Source of the DNA: a virus
Strand: one strand, 5' to 3'
Virus record (IMG/VR): IMGVR_UViG_3300036715_001368
Coordinates: 62,001 to 126,000 of that record
Length of the DNA: 64,000 nucleotides
The position numbers and the translations under genes are program-made. Below the pieces are notes generated by a model, which searched no databases, was not told the origin of the DNA, and saw only the letters and a program-made list of their open reading frames with translations. Shown here one piece after another: positions 6,231 through 49,028 of this stretch. How positions within the stretch are numbered: position 1 is the first letter of the stretch; each line of letters opens with the position of its first letter.

Positions 6231-6842
6231 ATGGGCAACCTGAAAGGATTCCAGGTTCGACTTTCGGCCGCCACGAAAAAAGATGTGAGGCTGTTCTACT
6301 CTAGAGGCATGCCTCTAGCTGAGATCCGGGAGCAGTTTGGAATCAGTCAACGACAGCTGATGTACATCGTGGAAGGGTTAGCTCTGAAACGAGACAACTG
6401 GATCTGGAGTGCAGCTGTCGCGCGCTTGCGACTTTGTTCTGATTTGCAGCTCGGATGGATAGCCGGGATCGTCGATGGTGAGGGTTGGATTGGATTGAAC
6501 TCGTCAACATCCAGCAAGACCTATGTAGACGTAAGGATTGCTGTGACATCGACAACCGTTGCAATGCAGAACGCGCTTTTGAAACTGACTGGCCTTGGAA
6601 CGGTTCACGATCAGAAGCCAGCCAAGCCGAATCATCGACCTCAGTTTACGTGGCGAGTTCAGTCTGCACTAAACGTCGGAGCGTTTCTTGAGGTTGTGTC
6701 TCCGTATCTCTTGATCAAGAGAGCGGTCGCAAAGGTCGTGCTGGATGTTTGCGTCAAGCGAATACGACCGCACGAAGGTCCGGTAAATGTGAGTGACGTT
6801 CGAACTAAGGTTCGAGCTTTGAACAAAAAGGGACGACCATGA
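6231..6842 (+). CDS. Free-standing LAGLIDADG homing endonuclease
   Basis: The product contains one LAGLIDADG helix, LGWIAGIVDGEGWIGL, with the acidic catalytic residue near its end, followed by the beta-rich DNA-binding part. At 203 residues with a single motif it would act as a homodimer. The N-terminal third (PLAEIREQFGISQRQLMYIV) is a helix-turn-helix that may add DNA specificity. AT-content and codon choice (TCT, AGA, TTG, CTA) differ visibly from the neighbouring genes, which suggests lateral acquisition. It sits between a hypothetical gene and the GHKL gene, overlapping the latter by ATGA, so it has inserted without breaking the transcription unit. Confidence 0.85.
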   Translation: MGNLKGFQVRLSAATKKDVRLFYSRGMPLAEIREQFGISQRQLMYIVEGLALKRDNWIWSAAVARLRLCSDLQLGWIAGIVDGEGWIGLNSSTSSKTYVDVRIAVTSTTVAMQNALLKLTGLGTVHDQKPAKPNHRPQFTWRVQSALNVGAFLEVVSPYLLIKRAVAKVVLDVCVKRIRPHEGPVNVSDVRTKVRALNKKGRP

Positions 6843-8443
6843 CGACGAAGAGCAAGGCTCGTGGCAAGAAAAAGATGTCTGTTGAAACGGTGGAGTTGAC
6901 CGTATCGGTTGATTACGTGTCGAATTGGTCGACACGTCATGGGGTTAGAGAAATCTTTCAGAATGCGATCGATGCCGAGAAGGTCATGGGAAACCGGATG
7001 GAGGTCGTCTACGAAAGAGACCTCCTTCGACTGCGTATCGTCACGCACGACGCGAAGCTGGAGATGAAGACGCTCCTCCTGGGCGTAAGCGAGAAGGGTG
7101 GCGAGGGTGCCATCGGTCGGTATGGCGAAGGCTACAAGGTCGGCGTGCTCGCCATGATCCGCGACGGCAAGCGGGTCGAGATCAGGACCGGCACGCAGCT
7201 CTGGAAGCCGAGGCTCGATCGTTCGGCATCGTTCGGCGTTCCCACGCTCCACTTCGACATCGAGAGCGGCCACGACGACTTCAGTGGCATCGAGGTCTGC
7301 ATTCACGGCATCATGCAGAAGGAGTGGGACGAGTACCGTCTCATGTTCAGGCACACCTCGGACTGGAGCGACTCGATCCTGACGAAGCTCCTTCCGTACT
7401 GGGAGGGCGACCCGCGGAGAGATGAATGCCGCGTCTTGCTCGGCGAGGAGCAGAAGGGACGTCTCTACGTCGGCGGCATCTTCGTCACCATGGACGAGGA
7501 GCTGGAGCACGGGTACGACCTGCCGCCCGAATCTTTCTGCCTCGACCGCGATCGCGACGTGATCCGCCGGCACGAGCTCGACGCGTGCATGGGGACGTTC
7601 TGGCAGTCCGTCTTCGTCGATGCCTGGGAAGCCAAGGACTCGGTGCGCATGTCGTTCGTCGTCGACAAGATCAAGAACGACGACCGCGACGCGCAGTCGA
7701 TCAAGACCGGCTCCATCCGAAGCCAGTTCCATCGCGCACTGGTCGCCTGGATCCGTCAGCAGCACGGTGAGAACGTCTACCCGGTTCCCGACACCTCAAC
7801 GGCGCACCAGGCCAAGGAGGCTGGTGTCGTAGCGACCGTCATCCCGGCCAAGGTCCACGCGCTCGTCTCGAACCAGTTCCCGTCGCTGGCGGACCTGAGG
7901 AAGCGTCGCGAGAGCGAGGTCGTACGATCGTGGTCGGTCGATACGCTCGAGAAGACGGACAACGTCACGCTTCGCTGGGCGTGGGACATGGTCGTGAAGG
8001 CGGGCAAGAAGCGGCTCACGTGGCTCGAGCCCAAGAATCTACCGATGCCACAGATCGCTGAGTTTCGCAGCGAGAACGTCGAAGGCGTCAACGCAGGCGG
8101 CCTGATCTTCGTGAAGAAGGACATGCTCAAGCAGAAGGGTCGGCTCATCGTGACCCTGGTGCATGAGTACATCCATCAGGTGACAGGCAAGCACGACGAG
8201 GCGATGCTGTCCTTGAGCGAGCAGATCTACGAGGAGATCATCGGAGACATGGTGAGCGACGTCGACCACGACGCCGTTGCCTGCGATGCAGCGGAGACGG
8301 AGGAGTTGACGGAGAAGACGACGGTCGATCGTGCCAAGACCACGTTCATCCAGCCGGAGTCCGGATCGTGCGTACCTGGTTCCGATCCTGGAACGAACAT
8401 GGATCCGATCGAGAGCAAGGACGACTCGGAGATTCCGTTCTGA
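6839..8443 (+). CDS. GHKL-type ATPase fused to an HExxH metallopeptidase-like domain
   Basis: Residues of about 20-130 show the Bergerat ATP-binding fold: VREIFQNAIDAE corresponds to the N-box and GRYGEGYKVG to the glycine-rich lid. The C-terminal part has LVHEYIHQVTGKHDEA, a zinc-metallopeptidase HExxH helix. The protein ends in DDSEIPF, an acidic tip like that of SSB proteins, which recruits DNA-repair partners. The combination resembles neither MutL, Hsp90 nor topoisomerase VI as a whole. An ATP-switched protease or DNA-associated chaperone is possible; ATP and metal binding are inferred only from motifs. Confidence 0.75.
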   Translation: MTTKSKARGKKKMSVETVELTVSVDYVSNWSTRHGVREIFQNAIDAEKVMGNRMEVVYERDLLRLRIVTHDAKLEMKTLLLGVSEKGGEGAIGRYGEGYKVGVLAMIRDGKRVEIRTGTQLWKPRLDRSASFGVPTLHFDIESGHDDFSGIEVCIHGIMQKEWDEYRLMFRHTSDWSDSILTKLLPYWEGDPRRDECRVLLGEEQKGRLYVGGIFVTMDEELEHGYDLPPESFCLDRDRDVIRRHELDACMGTFWQSVFVDAWEAKDSVRMSFVVDKIKNDDRDAQSIKTGSIRSQFHRALVAWIRQQHGENVYPVPDTSTAHQAKEAGVVATVIPAKVHALVSNQFPSLADLRKRRESEVVRSWSVDTLEKTDNVTLRWAWDMVVKAGKKRLTWLEPKNLPMPQIAEFRSENVEGVNAGGLIFVKKDMLKQKGRLIVTLVHEYIHQVTGKHDEAMLSLSEQIYEEIIGDMVSDVDHDAVACDAAETEELTEKTTVDRAKTTFIQPESGSCVPGSDPGTNMDPIESKDDSEIPF

Positions 8444-21219: not shown

Positions 21220-22545
21220 ATGGATCTCGATAGGGGCACCGTGGCAGCAGCGCTGAAGGAAGGCGCGGACTCGGTGAAATTCGTCAAGCGGTACCAGCTT
21301 GGCGGGAAGTACTTGAAGGGGGACGCTTCGCTTGCTTGGCGAATTGTCGAGCGGCACGTTTCTGAGTTCAACGACATTCCTACGTTGCAGGTCATCCAGA
21401 AAGAGGTTCCCAGCTTCCAGCTACCGGAAGAAGAGATCGACAAGCTGGAGTACTACGTTTCTGAGCTTCGCTACCGCGACCGTCAGGAGAGCTGGAACAG
21501 GCTCGGACCAGACATTGGGAACCTGGTGGTGAAGCAGAAGGATTTCGAGAAGGCGACCCATCGAATCAAGTCCTTCTTGCGTGAACAGGAAGAGAAAGAG
21601 CTGGTTGATCGCCAGATGGTCCGATCGCTCTTCGATATGACGCCGCTGGTGCGACAGAAGTACTTGGACATGAAGGAAGGGAAGATGGGCGTTCCGTTTC
21701 CCTGGTCCAGGATGAACAACATCACGCTTGGTGCGGAGCCTGGCGACAACACCGGATTCTTCGGACGACTGGGGATGGGCAAGACCCACGCTCTACTGCT
21801 TTCATGTCATCACGCATGGAAGTATGCCGGGTCCAAGACCCTCTTCGTCTCGCCAGAGATGAAGCAGATCTCGCTTGCGCAACGAATGTTTGCTTATGAC
21901 CTTCGCCTTCCACATGGACTCGTTCGTCGTGGCAAGCTCGATGAGTTCACGGAGACGAAGTTCTTCGAGGAGCTCGACAAGTTTGCCTCGATGGATGGCA
22001 TTTACATCGTCGACGACTCGTTCAGGATCACGCTCGACCTGCTCGAGGCCGCCATCGATCATGTGCGACCAGACATCGTCTATGTCGACGGTGTCTACAT
22101 GGTTCTCGCGGAGCGCGGTCTCAATCAGAAGGAGAACGCGGACGCCGTAGCTGTTGGCCTGAAGATGATTGCCAAGAAGAAGGCAGTGCCGATTGTTTAC
22201 TCGTCACAGTTCAATCGGACAGTGCAGAAGAACGATCCGTCAACGTTCACGGCAGAGGGTGTCGGCATCTCGGATCATTTCGGCTGGTTCGCCGACAACA
22301 TGTTTGCACTGATCCAGACGGACGATATGAAGGCAGACCGAGAGATGGTCTTCAAGGCCATCAAAGCTCGCGAGGCAAGCGGAGACGATGAGGTTCGCGT
22401 GAAGTGGGATTGGGAGCACCAAGACTTTTCGCAGTGCGGAGACGAAGAGAAGGGCAAGTTCCAGGATGCGGACTACCAGGCTTACGGTGGCCAGGGAGCG
22501 CCGACCAACGACCAGCCAGGACCAGATGACGATCTACCCTTCTGA
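21220..22545 (+). CDS. dnaB: DnaB-like replicative helicase
   Basis: The C-terminal RecA-type domain has Walker A GRLGMGKT (about residue 188), Walker B DIVYVDG and a Gln/Asn-bearing strand VPIVYSSQFNR. The N-terminal 150 residues are helical, as in the DnaB primase-interaction domain. At 441 residues it is a full-length hexameric helicase. The protein ends in DDDLPF, like the SSB C-terminal tip, which is unusual for a helicase. Loader upstream and primase downstream complete the replisome set. Confidence 0.88.
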   Translation: MDLDRGTVAAALKEGADSVKFVKRYQLGGKYLKGDASLAWRIVERHVSEFNDIPTLQVIQKEVPSFQLPEEEIDKLEYYVSELRYRDRQESWNRLGPDIGNLVVKQKDFEKATHRIKSFLREQEEKELVDRQMVRSLFDMTPLVRQKYLDMKEGKMGVPFPWSRMNNITLGAEPGDNTGFFGRLGMGKTHALLLSCHHAWKYAGSKTLFVSPEMKQISLAQRMFAYDLRLPHGLVRRGKLDEFTETKFFEELDKFASMDGIYIVDDSFRITLDLLEAAIDHVRPDIVYVDGVYMVLAERGLNQKENADAVAVGLKMIAKKKAVPIVYSSQFNRTVQKNDPSTFTAEGVGISDHFGWFADNMFALIQTDDMKADREMVFKAIKAREASGDDEVRVKWDWEHQDFSQCGDEEKGKFQDADYQAYGGQGAPTNDQPGPDDDLPF

Positions 22546-25331: not shown

Positions 25332-25384
25332 GAACAACGACCCGGCTCCAGCCTCCTGAAGATTCAGGGGCCGGGCCGTTGTTC
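25332..25384 (+). terminator. Long hairpin, probable terminator
   Basis: GAACAACG pairs with CGTTGTTC, and CCCGGCTCC with GGGGCCGGG inside it, giving about 17 paired bases with one mismatch. There is no long T tract. It fills the spacer between the SSB-like gene and the helicase start at 25403 and could terminate or attenuate transcription. Confidence 0.55.
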
Positions 25385-25402
25385 ACCTACGAAGAGCCAC
25401 AC

Positions 25403-27769
25403 ATGCCCAAAGTCTACGTCAGCGGCCTCGCTTGGCTGGACGTCAGCAGTTATGACTTGACGCGCATCGCGTCTGTCAAAGCTGCCTGCACGCTCAATCC
25501 ACGAAGGACCAGCAAGCATCAGACAGAGAAAGATCTCGAACCCATCGAGCTGTTTCAGCAGAGGGAGAGCCTGCTCGGAGTTCCGCGCGAGTACTTCATG
25601 AAGCACCGTACGATGGACCACGAACCGGTGTACCGGGTAACCCCTGGTCGCAAGTGGGCGAAGCAGTACGCGAGCGCCTTCACTCTACGAGACGACCAGC
25701 CTGATGCGGTCGAAGCTGTCATGCTCAGAATGACAGAGCCTTTTGGTGGAGCCGTGGTTCAGGCTCCAACCGGATGGGGGAAGTGTCTAGGGATTGGTAC
25801 GCCGGTTCTCAGATACGACGGAAAGATTGTCTTGGTAGAGACGCTGAAGGTTGGCGATCTTCTGATGGGGCCAGACAGTAGGCCAAGGAAGATCTTGTCG
25901 ACGTGCCGCGATCACGGACCGCTCTATCGGATCGTTCCGACAAAGGGTGGAGATCCGTGGGTATGCAATGACGTCCATGTGCTGACGCTCGTTCACACGG
26001 AGGACGGCAGGATCGTTGATGTACCGCTCAACGAGTACCTACGGAAAAGTGCGAACTGGAAGCGGGTCTACAAGCAGTTCGCACCAGAGAACGGTGTCGA
26101 ATTTGTTCCGAGGAAAGATCCGGAGGTCGATCCGTACTTCCTTGGAGTCTGGTTCGGTGACGGCACCAAGAGCCTGAAGGCCGTGTCGGTGACGACCATG
26201 GATGCGGAGATCGTGCAGATGCTACGAGACGTAGCTGCGTCGTACCGACTCAAGGTTCGGAAGGAAGATAATGACGGCACCAAGTGCCCGACCTACTTTC
26301 TGACCCACAACGGTCGAGTAAAAAATGACTGGAACGAACTGCTGAAGAGGATGAGGCACATCCTTGGAAAGGATGTCCGGATCCCGGACTCGATCCGATT
26401 CGGATCGAAGAAGATGAGAAGCGAGTTCCTTGCTGGATTCATCGACTCCGATGGGCACAACAACGATGGCTGTTACGAGATTGCGCAGAAGAGAAAGGAT
26501 TACGCAGAAGCCATCATGTTCATCGCAAGGTCTCTTGGGTTCTTTGCCCGAATGAGGCCGAAAGTTGTCAATGGAACGACGTACTGGAGGATTCATCTGC
26601 ACGGAGACTTCAGAAAAATTCCGATTCGGATCCCAAGGAAGATCCATAGTGGCAAGCTCCGGCACGGAGTTGAAGGTGGAACCAGGAACAAGCTCGCAAC
26701 GAGGACCGGCTTCACGGTCGAACCGTTGGACGACGGAGAGTACTTCGGGTTCGAGCTGGACGGTGACGGACGGTTCCTGATGGGTAACTTCGTGGTTACT
26801 CACAACACCGTCTTCGCGGTCGAGGTAGCTCGGCGCCTCGGGGTGTTTACCGCGGTGCTTGTGGAGAAGGAGAAGCTCAGAGATCAGTGGATCGAGCGCA
26901 TCAAGCAGCAGATCCCAGGGATCCGGGTTGGCATCCTTCAAGAGAACAGATGTGACATGGACTCGGATGTCATCGTCTGCATGCTGGACTCGATGACAGG
27001 TCGCGAACACAAAGACCTGTACGAACAAGTTGGCTTCGTCATCGCTGACGAAGTGCATCACATGGGTGCTCGTACAAGAGCGCCGATCCTCGCGCGGTTC
27101 TCGGGTCCATGGAGACTCGGGCTCAGCGCAAAGCCAAGCCGCATCGACGGGTGCGAAAGGGCGTTCTACGACAACATCGGACCCAAGGCATACATCGCTA
27201 GTGTCCGCCGTCTCACCGCCCGCGTCTTCTTCAGGAAGACGTACTGGCGTCCGATTACGACACGAGACTTCAACCCGGAGAAGGTTAGCGACCAGACGCT
27301 TCTGAACATCATGTGCGCAAGCGTCCCACGCAATGAGCTGATCGTCTCTGACTTGATCAAGGCCGTTATCGCTGGGCGCAAGGTCATCGTGTTCAGTGCG
27401 CGCAGGAAGCACCTGGACACGTTGCGAGACATGTTTGCCAGGCAGAGGCCAGCAGGGAAGACGGACGGCTTCCTGAGGGGTGGCATGTCAAAGAAAGACC
27501 TTCAGCGCACCGATCGGTGTGATGTGCTCTGGGCCACGTACGAGTTCGCAAAGGAGGCGTACGACAACCCGGACATAGACACCGTGTTACTCGCCACGCC
27601 TGTTTCCGATCCAGAGCAGCCGGTCGGTCGTGGCACCAGGTGGAAGCCAGACAAGAAAGAACCGTACGTGCTCGATTACGTGGACAGCGGACCCACGATC
27701 TTCGAGAAGCGACACGACCGACGCAAGTCGGTCTACAAGGCGATCAAAGCATCCATCGGCAAAGACTGA
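25403..27769 (+). CDS. XPB/UvsW-like DNA helicase interrupted by an intein
   Basis: The spliced protein would be about 447 residues. Motif I APTGWGK/T is split by the intein after Lys; motif II is IADEVHH (DEVH), motif III-like GLSAKPSR, and the C-terminal RecA domain has VIVFSARRKHL and PVGRGTRW as motif VI. N-terminal residues precede the Q-like LRDDQPDAV. This matches superfamily 2 helicases of the XPB/UvsW branch, which remodel recombination intermediates. The ATG at 25403 is chosen over a TTG at 25379 that would start inside the hairpin. Without intein removal the ATPase would be inactive, so splicing is essential. Confidence 0.88.
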   Translation: MPKVYVSGLAWLDVSSYDLTRIASVKAACTLNPRRTSKHQTEKDLEPIELFQQRESLLGVPREYFMKHRTMDHEPVYRVTPGRKWAKQYASAFTLRDDQPDAVEAVMLRMTEPFGGAVVQAPTGWGKCLGIGTPVLRYDGKIVLVETLKVGDLLMGPDSRPRKILSTCRDHGPLYRIVPTKGGDPWVCNDVHVLTLVHTEDGRIVDVPLNEYLRKSANWKRVYKQFAPENGVEFVPRKDPEVDPYFLGVWFGDGTKSLKAVSVTTMDAEIVQMLRDVAASYRLKVRKEDNDGTKCPTYFLTHNGRVKNDWNELLKRMRHILGKDVRIPDSIRFGSKKMRSEFLAGFIDSDGHNNDGCYEIAQKRKDYAEAIMFIARSLGFFARMRPKVVNGTTYWRIHLHGDFRKIPIRIPRKIHSGKLRHGVEGGTRNKLATRTGFTVEPLDDGEYFGFELDGDGRFLMGNFVVTHNTVFAVEVARRLGVFTAVLVEKEKLRDQWIERIKQQIPGIRVGILQENRCDMDSDVIVCMLDSMTGREHKDLYEQVGFVIADEVHHMGARTRAPILARFSGPWRLGLSAKPSRIDGCERAFYDNIGPKAYIASVRRLTARVFFRKTYWRPITTRDFNPEKVSDQTLLNIMCASVPRNELIVSDLIKAVIAGRKVIVFSARRKHLDTLRDMFARQRPAGKTDGFLRGGMSKKDLQRTDRCDVLWATYEFAKEAYDNPDIDTVLLATPVSDPEQPVGRGTRWKPDKKEPYVLDYVDSGPTIFEKRHDRRKSVYKAIKASIGKD
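25630..25640. repeat. GTACCNGGTAC-type site (one mismatch)
   Basis: GTACCGGGTAA, in the N-terminal part of the helicase gene. Confidence 0.45.
25784..26806 (+). mobile_element. Intein with LAGLIDADG endonuclease, inserted in Walker A
   Basis: The 341-residue insert (residues 128-468) begins with Cys1 (CLGIGTPVLRYDG), has a block-B-like region around DVHVLTL, and ends GNFVVTHN, with extein Thr at +1. Two endonuclease helices, LGVWFGDGT and LAGFIDSDGH, form a monomeric LAGLIDADG domain. Codon use is somewhat different from the flanks. The insertion point, between Lys and Thr of GxGK/T, is a well-known intein site in ATPases. All splicing residues appear present, so the intein is probably active. 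Confidence 0.93.
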
Positions 27770-46964: not shown

Positions 46965-47404
46965 ACCGCAACGGCATGGAGGAGTGGGAGGTCAACGTTC
47001 AGCAACGTCCGGCCCGCGAGAACCACCACCTTGTCTGTCCTGAGTGCGGCGCGAAGCTCGTTCTTCGTTCTCGTAGGGACGGGAAGTGGTTCTACGGATG
47101 CGAGATGTGGATGGACACGAAGTGCGACGGCGGGATCGGGGCGCATCCAGACGGCACACCGCTCGGGATCCCGGCGAACAAGGAGACGAAGAAGGCGAGG
47201 GTCGAGGCCCATCGATCCTTCGATCGCCTTTGCACCGAAGGGAAGATGTCGAAAGGCAAAGCCTACAAGTGGATGAAGAAGACGTTGCAGCTCGCGAACG
47301 GCATGAGCCACATCGCGATGATGACGAAGAGTCAGTGCGAGGCACTGGTGGCGGCAGTAGACACGAAGCTCGGGAAGAAGGAACAGCATGTCGACGACAG
47401 ATGA
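46961..47404 (+). CDS. DUF3268-like zinc-finger protein
   Basis: CPECGAKLVLRSRRDGKWFYGC resembles a topoisomerase-type zinc finger, and HPDGTPLGIPANKETKKAR followed by a helical AYKWMKKTLQL and HIAMMTKSQCEALV matches the DUF3268 layout. 147 residues. Possibly nucleic-acid-binding. ATGA overlap with DUF5131 and 17-base overlap with the methyltransferase. Confidence 0.7.
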   Translation: MNRNGMEEWEVNVQQRPARENHHLVCPECGAKLVLRSRRDGKWFYGCEMWMDTKCDGGIGAHPDGTPLGIPANKETKKARVEAHRSFDRLCTEGKMSKGKAYKWMKKTLQLANGMSHIAMMTKSQCEALVAAVDTKLGKKEQHVDDR

Positions 47405-49028
47405 AAAGGTGTACACGCTCCTCTGCCCATTCGGAGGGATTGGCGCAGGAGCCTTGGGATTCCTTCGTGCTCGGTTGAAGATGCTCGGAGTCGAGGCTCG
47501 GTGGAAGGTCATCGGCAACATCGACAACGACAAGCTTGCCTGTGAAGACTTCGAGTACCTGACGAAGTCGAAGGCCGTCTGCGCCGACATCCAGGCGATG
47601 ACGGCCAAGGAGCTGATCGCTCACTTCGGTCCGGAGCCACCGGACGCTGTCTTCAGCAGCCCGCCGTGCAAGGGCTTCAGTGGTCTGCTCTCGGAGAAGC
47701 GGTCGAAGACGGACAAGTACCAGAAGATGAACCGGCTCATCCTCGACTGGATGGAGCTGATGTTCAAGGCATGGCCAGAAGGCCCTCGGCTCGTACTCAT
47801 CGAGAACGTGCCCAGGATCCAGTCACGCGGCGCTCCGCTTCTCCGCCAGATCAAGGAGATACTGAACGCGCACGGTTACGTCTGCCACGGCAGCACTCAT
47901 GATTGTGGTGAGCTCGGTGGTCTCGGCCAGCATCGTCAACGCTTCCTGCTCGTTGCTCGAAAGTATAAAAAGGTCCCTGCGATTCTGTTTCAACCGATCA
48001 AGAAGCGGGTGAAGGCGTGCGGCGAAGTCCTGGAGAAGCTGCCCATGCCGAATGATCCGGCTGGCGGCCCCATGCACGTTCTTCCAAAGGTCTCGTGGTT
48101 GAACTGGGTCCGGTTGTCCCTCATCCCAGCTGGTGGAGACTGGAGGGATCTCCCGGGCGTGCTCGAGGAAGGACAGGAGCGCCGATCCAAGTTCAAGCGT
48201 AAGGCCGTTGAGAGCTGGTACGCACCAACGGGGACGATTGGCGGACCGGGCTCGAATGGTGTCGAGAATGTCGCGGATCCGCGCGTCACGTCCATCTCGA
48301 ACAGCCAGAACACTCACCAGAACAAGTACGCCATCATCGAGTGGGACAAGGCAAGCAAGACTGTCATCGGAGCGGCGAGGCCAGGCTCAGGAGCCCTGAA
48401 CGTGGCTGACCCTCGCATCCCCAAGGACATCAAGCTCAACATCGTGATGCCACCTGCGGTCTGCTACGACCATGGCTATGGGGTCCTGGACTTCTGGAAT
48501 CAGCCATCCTCCACCATCGCCGCGGGGTCAGCTGTAGGTCAGGGCGCGTATTCGGTAGCTGATCCTCGCCTGATCCCGAAGGCAGAGCCGTACAAAGGAA
48601 CGTACGGAGTGCTCGACTGGAAGGAGGTGGCGAAGACCGTCACCGGCAACGCTCGTCTCGATACGGGCACGTTCGCCGTGGCGGATCCGCGAGACAACCG
48701 TCCGCACTGGATTATCAACAAGCTCACGGACAAGCCACCGTTCGTCCCAGTCATCGTAGCCGAGGACGGAACGTGGCACCGACCGCTAACCACCCTGGAG
48801 CTTGCCGCCCTTCAGTCGATCCCGACAGAAGTGGACGGGAAGCCCTTGAAGCTCGCCGGGAACAGCATCTCTGGCTGGCGCGAGCGAATCGGGAACGCCG
48901 TTCCGGTGGACACGGCTGAAGCCATTGGCGTAAGGATGCTCACGGTCCTTCTGGAGAGCGATACGAACGCATTCATGCTGTCTTCTGGTGGAGCGGTATG
49001 GGTGGAGCCAGCACGGCTCGACTCGTAA
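47388..49028 (+). CDS. DNA (cytosine-5) methyltransferase
   Basis: The C5 motifs are FGGIGAGALG (I), SSPPCKGFSG with the catalytic Cys (IV), LIENVP (VI), GQHRQRFLLVA (VIII) and IGNAVPVDTA (X). Between VIII and X lies a long recognition region with four VADPR repeats, each followed by a variable segment and two YGVLD units. At 546 residues it is larger than typical (about 330-420). It probably protects phage DNA from several host restriction specificities; the repeats could be alternative recognition modules. It is followed by a 69-base leader to the dioxygenase operon. Confidence 0.9.
   Translation: MSTTDEKVYTLLCPFGGIGAGALGFLRARLKMLGVEARWKVIGNIDNDKLACEDFEYLTKSKAVCADIQAMTAKELIAHFGPEPPDAVFSSPPCKGFSGLLSEKRSKTDKYQKMNRLILDWMELMFKAWPEGPRLVLIENVPRIQSRGAPLLRQIKEILNAHGYVCHGSTHDCGELGGLGQHRQRFLLVARKYKKVPAILFQPIKKRVKACGEVLEKLPMPNDPAGGPMHVLPKVSWLNWVRLSLIPAGGDWRDLPGVLEEGQERRSKFKRKAVESWYAPTGTIGGPGSNGVENVADPRVTSISNSQNTHQNKYAIIEWDKASKTVIGAARPGSGALNVADPRIPKDIKLNIVMPPAVCYDHGYGVLDFWNQPSSTIAAGSAVGQGAYSVADPRLIPKAEPYKGTYGVLDWKEVAKTVTGNARLDTGTFAVADPRDNRPHWIINKLTDKPPFVPVIVAEDGTWHRPLTTLELAALQSIPTEVDGKPLKLAGNSISGWRERIGNAVPVDTAEAIGVRMLTVLLESDTNAFMLSSGGAVWVEPARLDS

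Follow-up and report, generated by a model that had tools for sequence, protein, structure and literature searches.

The stretch of viral DNA described here, referred to as the window, comprises 64,000 nucleotides (positions 62001-126000 of the 159,018-bp viral record IMGVR_UViG_3300036715_001368) and carries a gene for a 534-residue protein in which a GHKL ATPase of the Hsp90-like type is joined to a small C-terminal domain bearing the HExxH motif of zincins. A preliminary description of this DNA, made from the sequence alone, had pointed to such a fusion, and the coordinates and motifs that it quoted (an N-box, an ATP lid, HEYIH and a terminal DDSEIPF) are all present in the intact open reading frame (ORF), with the following features.

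6839..8443, plus strand: complete GHKL-zincin fusion gene, 534 aa, ATG start, match to phrog_6077
6878..7348, plus strand: GHKL (Hsp90-like) ATPase domain, about residues 14-170; predicted local distance difference test score (pLDDT) mostly >90 in the AlphaFold2 (AF2) model, Foldseek matches to Hsp90, MORC4 and TopoVI-B, profile match to HtpG
6947..6976, plus strand: N-box R37-E38-xxx-N42-xx-D45, conserved in relatives
7115..7138, plus strand: ATP lid G93-xx-G96-E97-G98-x-K100, kept in 138-139 of 139 relatives
7373..7873, plus strand: Hsp90-middle-like (transducer) region, about residues 179-345; Foldseek matches to the Hsp90 N-terminal plus middle domain (NTD-MD) structures 8u1m (E 2.2e-7) and 6xlf (E 1.2e-8)
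7547..7555, plus strand: R237-D238-R239 motif
7922..8278, plus strand: mini-zincin (minigluzincin/Wss1-like) domain, about residues 362-480 (~120 aa), assigned from the model, Foldseek and profile comparison with PDB
8162..8176, plus strand: HEYIH, residues 442-446, in which H442 and H446 are the predicted zinc ligands and E443 the predicted catalytic residue; invariant in 26 aligned domains
8192..8197, plus strand: H452-D453, with H452 at the position of the third zinc ligand of Wss1 (HExxHxxxGxHD) and D453 almost invariant in the family
8291..8440, plus strand: disordered tail, residues 485-534, pLDDT <50
8420..8440, plus strand: DDSEIPF terminus, residues 528-534, resembling the C-terminal tip of SSB (an acidic run, then hydrophobic-Pro-Phe-COOH)

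This two-part architecture can be described with high confidence, as family conservation, two confident structural models and both profile and fold searches agree on a GHKL ATPase followed by a metallopeptidase-like domain. The conservation was read from 139 distinct full-length family members (duplicates removed), mostly 17-30% identical and belonging to phages and a few bacterial or archaeal contigs. They were gathered by alignment queries that yielded 80 IMG/VR loci first and more in further searches; single-sequence searches of IMG/VR returned no match with the Exiguobacterium and Moorella phage proteins discussed below, and just one 100%-identical copy with the window protein.

In the ATPase half, the N-box REIFQNAIDAE (residues 37-47) is conserved at E38 (137/137), N42 (134/137) and D45 (136/137), and the lid GRYGEGYK (residues 93-100) at G93, E97 and G98 (139/139 each) and K100 (138/139), while R239, a candidate basic residue for sensing the gamma-phosphate, is invariant in all 139 relatives. 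The phrog_6077 profile matches residues 18-349 with an E-value of 3.1e-52, NCBIfam gives a weak match to the sacsin N-terminal ATP-binding domain, and HtpG is the best match of the ATPase part in a profile comparison with PDB sequences (E 3.6e-4). The AF2 model of the full protein, built on a 48-sequence alignment, has a mean pLDDT of 84.8, being ordered over residues 11-480 and disordered over residues 485-534, and its Foldseek matches are headed by Hsp90 NTD-MD structures, followed by MORC4 and TopoVI-B. The protein is also matched in 112 GenBank phage records, where it is labelled 'hypothetical' or 'histidine kinase-like ATPase'.

The C-terminal domain retains H-E-x-x-H and a following Asp in all 26 aligned domains, which are only 13-24% identical to that of the window protein, and a role in catalysis or metal binding is therefore hard to avoid. 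Predicted in isolation, this domain reaches a pLDDT of 91.5 and a predicted TM-score of 0.83, and models and fold search alike place the HExxH helix after a small beta-sheet, as in the zincin fold. Minigluzincins (selecase, jannalysin) and yeast Wss1 account for all 14 of the best Foldseek matches in PDB, with probabilities of 0.5-1.0 (selecase 1.00, Wss1 0.96). A profile of the C-terminal domains compared with PDB ranks Wss1p first (E 0.0018) and proabylysin second (E 0.0054), with AIP56, a toxin of a fish pathogen, and then Schizosaccharomyces pombe Wss1 and Spartan further down; with the window protein left out of the profile Wss1p is still on top (E 0.0020) and Spartan rises to E 0.017. 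It has been reported that Wss1 and Spartan group with the minigluzincins (PMC4559962). The SprT-like profile PF10263 weakly matches 9/26 of the family domains (best E 2.7e-5), and its sole match, below threshold, across the 159-kb record is the C-terminal domain of the fusion protein. DUF6782 is a further weak profile match; no paper on DUF6782 was found among the matches listed. The zinc site is probably composed of H442, E443 and H446 together with H452 or D453, the former lying six residues after the second His of the motif (HExxHxxxxxH), as in Wss1.

A motif as short as HExxH occurs somewhere in 3.7% of shuffled versions of the window protein. A chance match was rejected, however, because the motif lies in the same alignment column in 38/139 relatives and because a profile built blind, from 25 C-terminal domains with that of the window protein excluded, picks out the fusion ORF as its sole significant match in the 159-kb record (E 3.6e-13, the next-best match having E 0.72). 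When mapped onto a tree built from the ATPase plus middle region (about residues 29-359), the distribution of HExxH requires 5 changes, versus at least 27 for shuffled labels, and the fusion is therefore old and inherited by descent rather than scattered. The refuting conditions named in the preliminary description, loss of HExxH or the N-box in homologues and a fold lacking a metal site, were decided in its favour, since clades with the zincin domain retain both motifs and the predicted fold is that of a zincin. Members with HExxH are mostly 423-534 aa long and those without it mostly 330-400 aa. The former include proteins from Desulfofundulus, Archaeoglobales, Micrarchaeota and Bacillota-bin contigs, which may be proviruses or viral contigs. 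Two of these relatives are longer and have extra unidentified regions, namely L114:868-3804 (979 aa, Micrarchaeota) and L111:2709-5132 (808 aa, Bacillota bin).

The C-terminal tip of the window protein resembles that of Escherichia coli SSB, which ends in DDDIPF (PMC5872125), and the preliminary description had suggested recruitment by SSB-binding machinery. That suggestion stands in so far as an acidic end followed by [I/L]PF is enriched in the family, occurring in 4/139 members versus 1/995 other ORFs at the same loci (Fisher p 0.001, an optimistic value because the motif was picked after the window protein had been viewed and related sequences are not independent). The three further cases are GHKL-only relatives ending in SDEDLPF, SSNIPF and EESELPF. 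A tail of the same type is found on the DnaB-like helicase encoded in the window (21220-22545, plus strand; C-terminus GPDDDLPF), and the 112-residue phage SSB (35680-36018, plus strand; PF00436, E 2.5e-8) lacks the usual acidic tip. The combination of a tipped helicase with a tipless SSB in one phage points to movement of the tail from one replication protein to another. A phage-wide 'replisome tag' was also considered and is unsupported in Streptococcus phage GXN1, where no ORF but that of the GHKL protein carries an SSB-like tail. In our reading, the tail would let some members bind host or phage proteins that read the SSB tip and belongs as an accessory to individual members rather than to the fusions as a class.

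Taken together, these features make it somewhat probable that the fusion is a phage ATP-gated metalloprotease at work where replication or repair takes place, an Hsp90-like clamp being combined in it with a minigluzincin similar to Wss1, SPRTN and selecase. An active metalloprotease is the likelier part of this proposal, and a coupling of proteolysis to ATP, which the architecture suggests, has a little better than an even chance. In such a mechanism, the GHKL and middle domains would form a clamp, probably dimeric, that binds ATP and closes, with the minigluzincin placed where Hsp90 has its client-binding and dimerisation region, so that the zinc site could cut a protein held by the clamp or close to it. 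The flexible 50-residue tail, through its DDSEIPF tip, would dock the window protein to proteins that read SSB tips and thereby place proteolysis at replication or repair sites, where the likely job would be to remove or trim proteins bound to phage DNA. The tail and the kinship with Wss1 and SPRTN give a slight preference to a DNA-associated substrate over a host defence protein, although the balance is close to even.

Sacsin-like GHKL proteins of phrog_6077, present in Vequintavirinae and many other phages, have the ATPase and middle region in common with the window protein; they mostly end at 330-400 aa without a zincin, whereas the window protein adds the protease domain and the tail. The full architecture is found in Exiguobacterium phage EalM-132 (AYP68649, HETIH) and Moorella phage MTATph1 (WPA89660, HETLH), both annotated 'hypothetical'; these proteins are 22-25% identical to the window protein, shorter and without the SSB-like tail, and D-x-T-x-x-F replaces HD. 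Hsp90/HtpG, the MORC ATPases and TopoVI-B share the GHKL fold, and Hsp90 also the order of N-terminal and middle domains, but none of them has a zincin, which in the phage protein takes the place of the Hsp90 C-terminal domain. For the C-terminal domain, Wss1, SPRTN and SprT are the nearest solved kin by profile, and Wss1 also by fold and by the shared spacing HExxHxxxGxHD. Wss1 partners with a separate AAA ATPase, Cdc48 (PMC4559962), whereas the window protein has its GHKL ATPase fused. The adaptor motifs of the eukaryotic proteases would not be expected in a phage protein. The minimal zincin fold is likewise shared with selecase, jannalysin and proabylysin, which stand alone, while the phage domain is attached to an ATPase clamp.

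On the other hand, a number of observations weigh against an ATP-gated protease at replication sites. The G1 box (DxGxG), which contacts adenine in GHKL proteins, takes the degenerate form T69-H-D-A-K in the window protein and is kept in about half of the HExxH members and 1/101 of the other relatives; despite this family-wide loss, the placement in the GHKL superfamily is upheld by the remaining motifs, by the profile match and by the fold. The TM-scores of the Hsp90 matches are low (0.32-0.35), for which differing domain angles in a multi-domain match may be a cause. The Foldseek E-values of the zincin matches are modest (0.008-0.7), and membership of the Pfam families was rejected both for WLM (Wss1, PF08325; 15-18 bits versus a curated cut-off of 26) and for SprT-like (PF10263; 14.7 bits for the window C-terminus versus 25.6). 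Thus the description 'SPRTN-like in concept' is borne out by the fold, with Wss1, Spartan and minigluzincins nearest, and not by these family thresholds. The register of the third zinc ligand also varies, from HD in the window protein to DG..xH or D.T..FE elsewhere, and most relatives have no His in the Wss1 register; other mini-zincins change this ligand as well (PMC3890501). Furthermore, the zincin domain is absent from 101/139 relatives, so the ATPase functions without it, and a protein from a Bathyarchaeota bin (L112:4956-6467) keeps the domain with EELVH replacing HExxH, a natural pseudo-peptidase. The SSB-like tail is present in just 1/38 HExxH members, and no conserved partner gene recurred near HExxH members among the 140 neighbouring ORFs scanned.

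It is possible, if rather unlikely, that the protein is instead a counter-defence protease, an rIIA-like GHKL protein whose variable C-terminal protease would cleave a host defence or regulatory protein after ATP-dependent target recognition. It has been argued that patchily distributed SprT-like and ArdC-like peptidases of phages act on host proteins, and T4 rIIA and its orthologues offer an analogy, being likewise phage proteins in which a GHKL domain at the N-terminus is followed by a highly variable C-terminal part (PMC7824862). The restriction of the HExxH domain to clades and the unconserved neighbourhoods, one of which contains ArdA, are in line with this explanation. Nevertheless, a direct profile comparison with T4 rIIA gives a weak match that is confined to the N-box and lid (probability 24% in hhalign, E 8e-4), an assignment to the rIIA family is doubtful on this account, and the SSB-like tail has no obvious explanation in a counter-defence role. 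The window protein is also unmatched by PADLOC, whose models cover defence and not anti-defence; a known defence gene was rejected on the same result, and one relative weakly matches TmtA GHKL.

A chaperone or clamp of the Hsp90 kind, with the zincin fold serving merely as a structural or substrate-binding module, appears improbable. The many members without the domain, the shifting third ligand and the relative without HExxH would suit it, and such pseudo-peptidases are reported from most metallopeptidase families (PMC11266112); the invariance of HExxH and Asp among the diverged domains speaks against it. A protease for virion maturation or other processing of phage proteins, a role proposed earlier for phage zincins (PMC7824862), is highly improbable since no identified structural genes lie close by in the window, nor generally in relatives, and an ATPase domain would be unexpected.

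Most known DNA-protein crosslink proteases are eukaryotic, and the phage ATP-gated metalloprotease favoured here bears on whether bacterial viruses carry their own. If it is true, an Hsp90-like clamp tied to a protease would constitute a new form of ATP gating of proteolysis, unlike that of AAA+ unfoldases. More speculatively, and with considerable doubt, the fusions could represent a widespread class of phage enzymes for single-chain, ATP-gated clearance of proteins from replicating phage DNA, with an SSB-tip mimic in some members, as a viral counterpart of Cdc48-Wss1. The parts are of known kinds, and the present analysis contributes their arrangement in one protein, how broadly it occurs and the kinship with Wss1/SPRTN; no description of a GHKL-zincin fusion was found in the literature searched, a limited coverage with most subscription journals outside it. 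The family is large, with 38 fusions spread over archaeal contigs and phages whose hosts range from Exiguobacterium to Moorella, and it is open to testing through two mutable motifs, isolated carrier phages and a tail motif whose binding partners are known.

The genomic setting is that of a large tailed phage, with genes for a DnaB-like helicase, a primase, a UvsX-like recombinase, a DNA ligase and DNA methyltransferases. The ATG of the fusion gene overlaps the stop of the upstream gene, sharing 4 nt, and this neighbour (6231-6842, plus strand) is a homing-endonuclease-like gene (phrog_5046, E 3e-20), the sole named family adjoining the fusion gene, no profile search directed at rIIB having been made. 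The homing-type endonuclease and the DNA ligase are the nearest identified genes in the window. Around the HExxH members, the most frequent neighbours are UvrD- and Dda-like helicases and unnamed families, at most three times each, along with nucleotide-metabolism genes; such neighbourhoods are compatible with an early, accessory gene and fit DNA repair and counter-defence alike. Elsewhere in the window, a helicase gene (25379-27769, plus strand) is split by a probable intein, with Hom_end-associated Hint and LAGLIDADG homing endonuclease domains within the helicase. Finally, a 546-residue DNA methyltransferase-like ORF (47388-49028, plus strand) has a phrog_116 match that spans 512 residues but 285 profile positions, and it also matches phrog_32684 at residues 78-223, a possible insertion.
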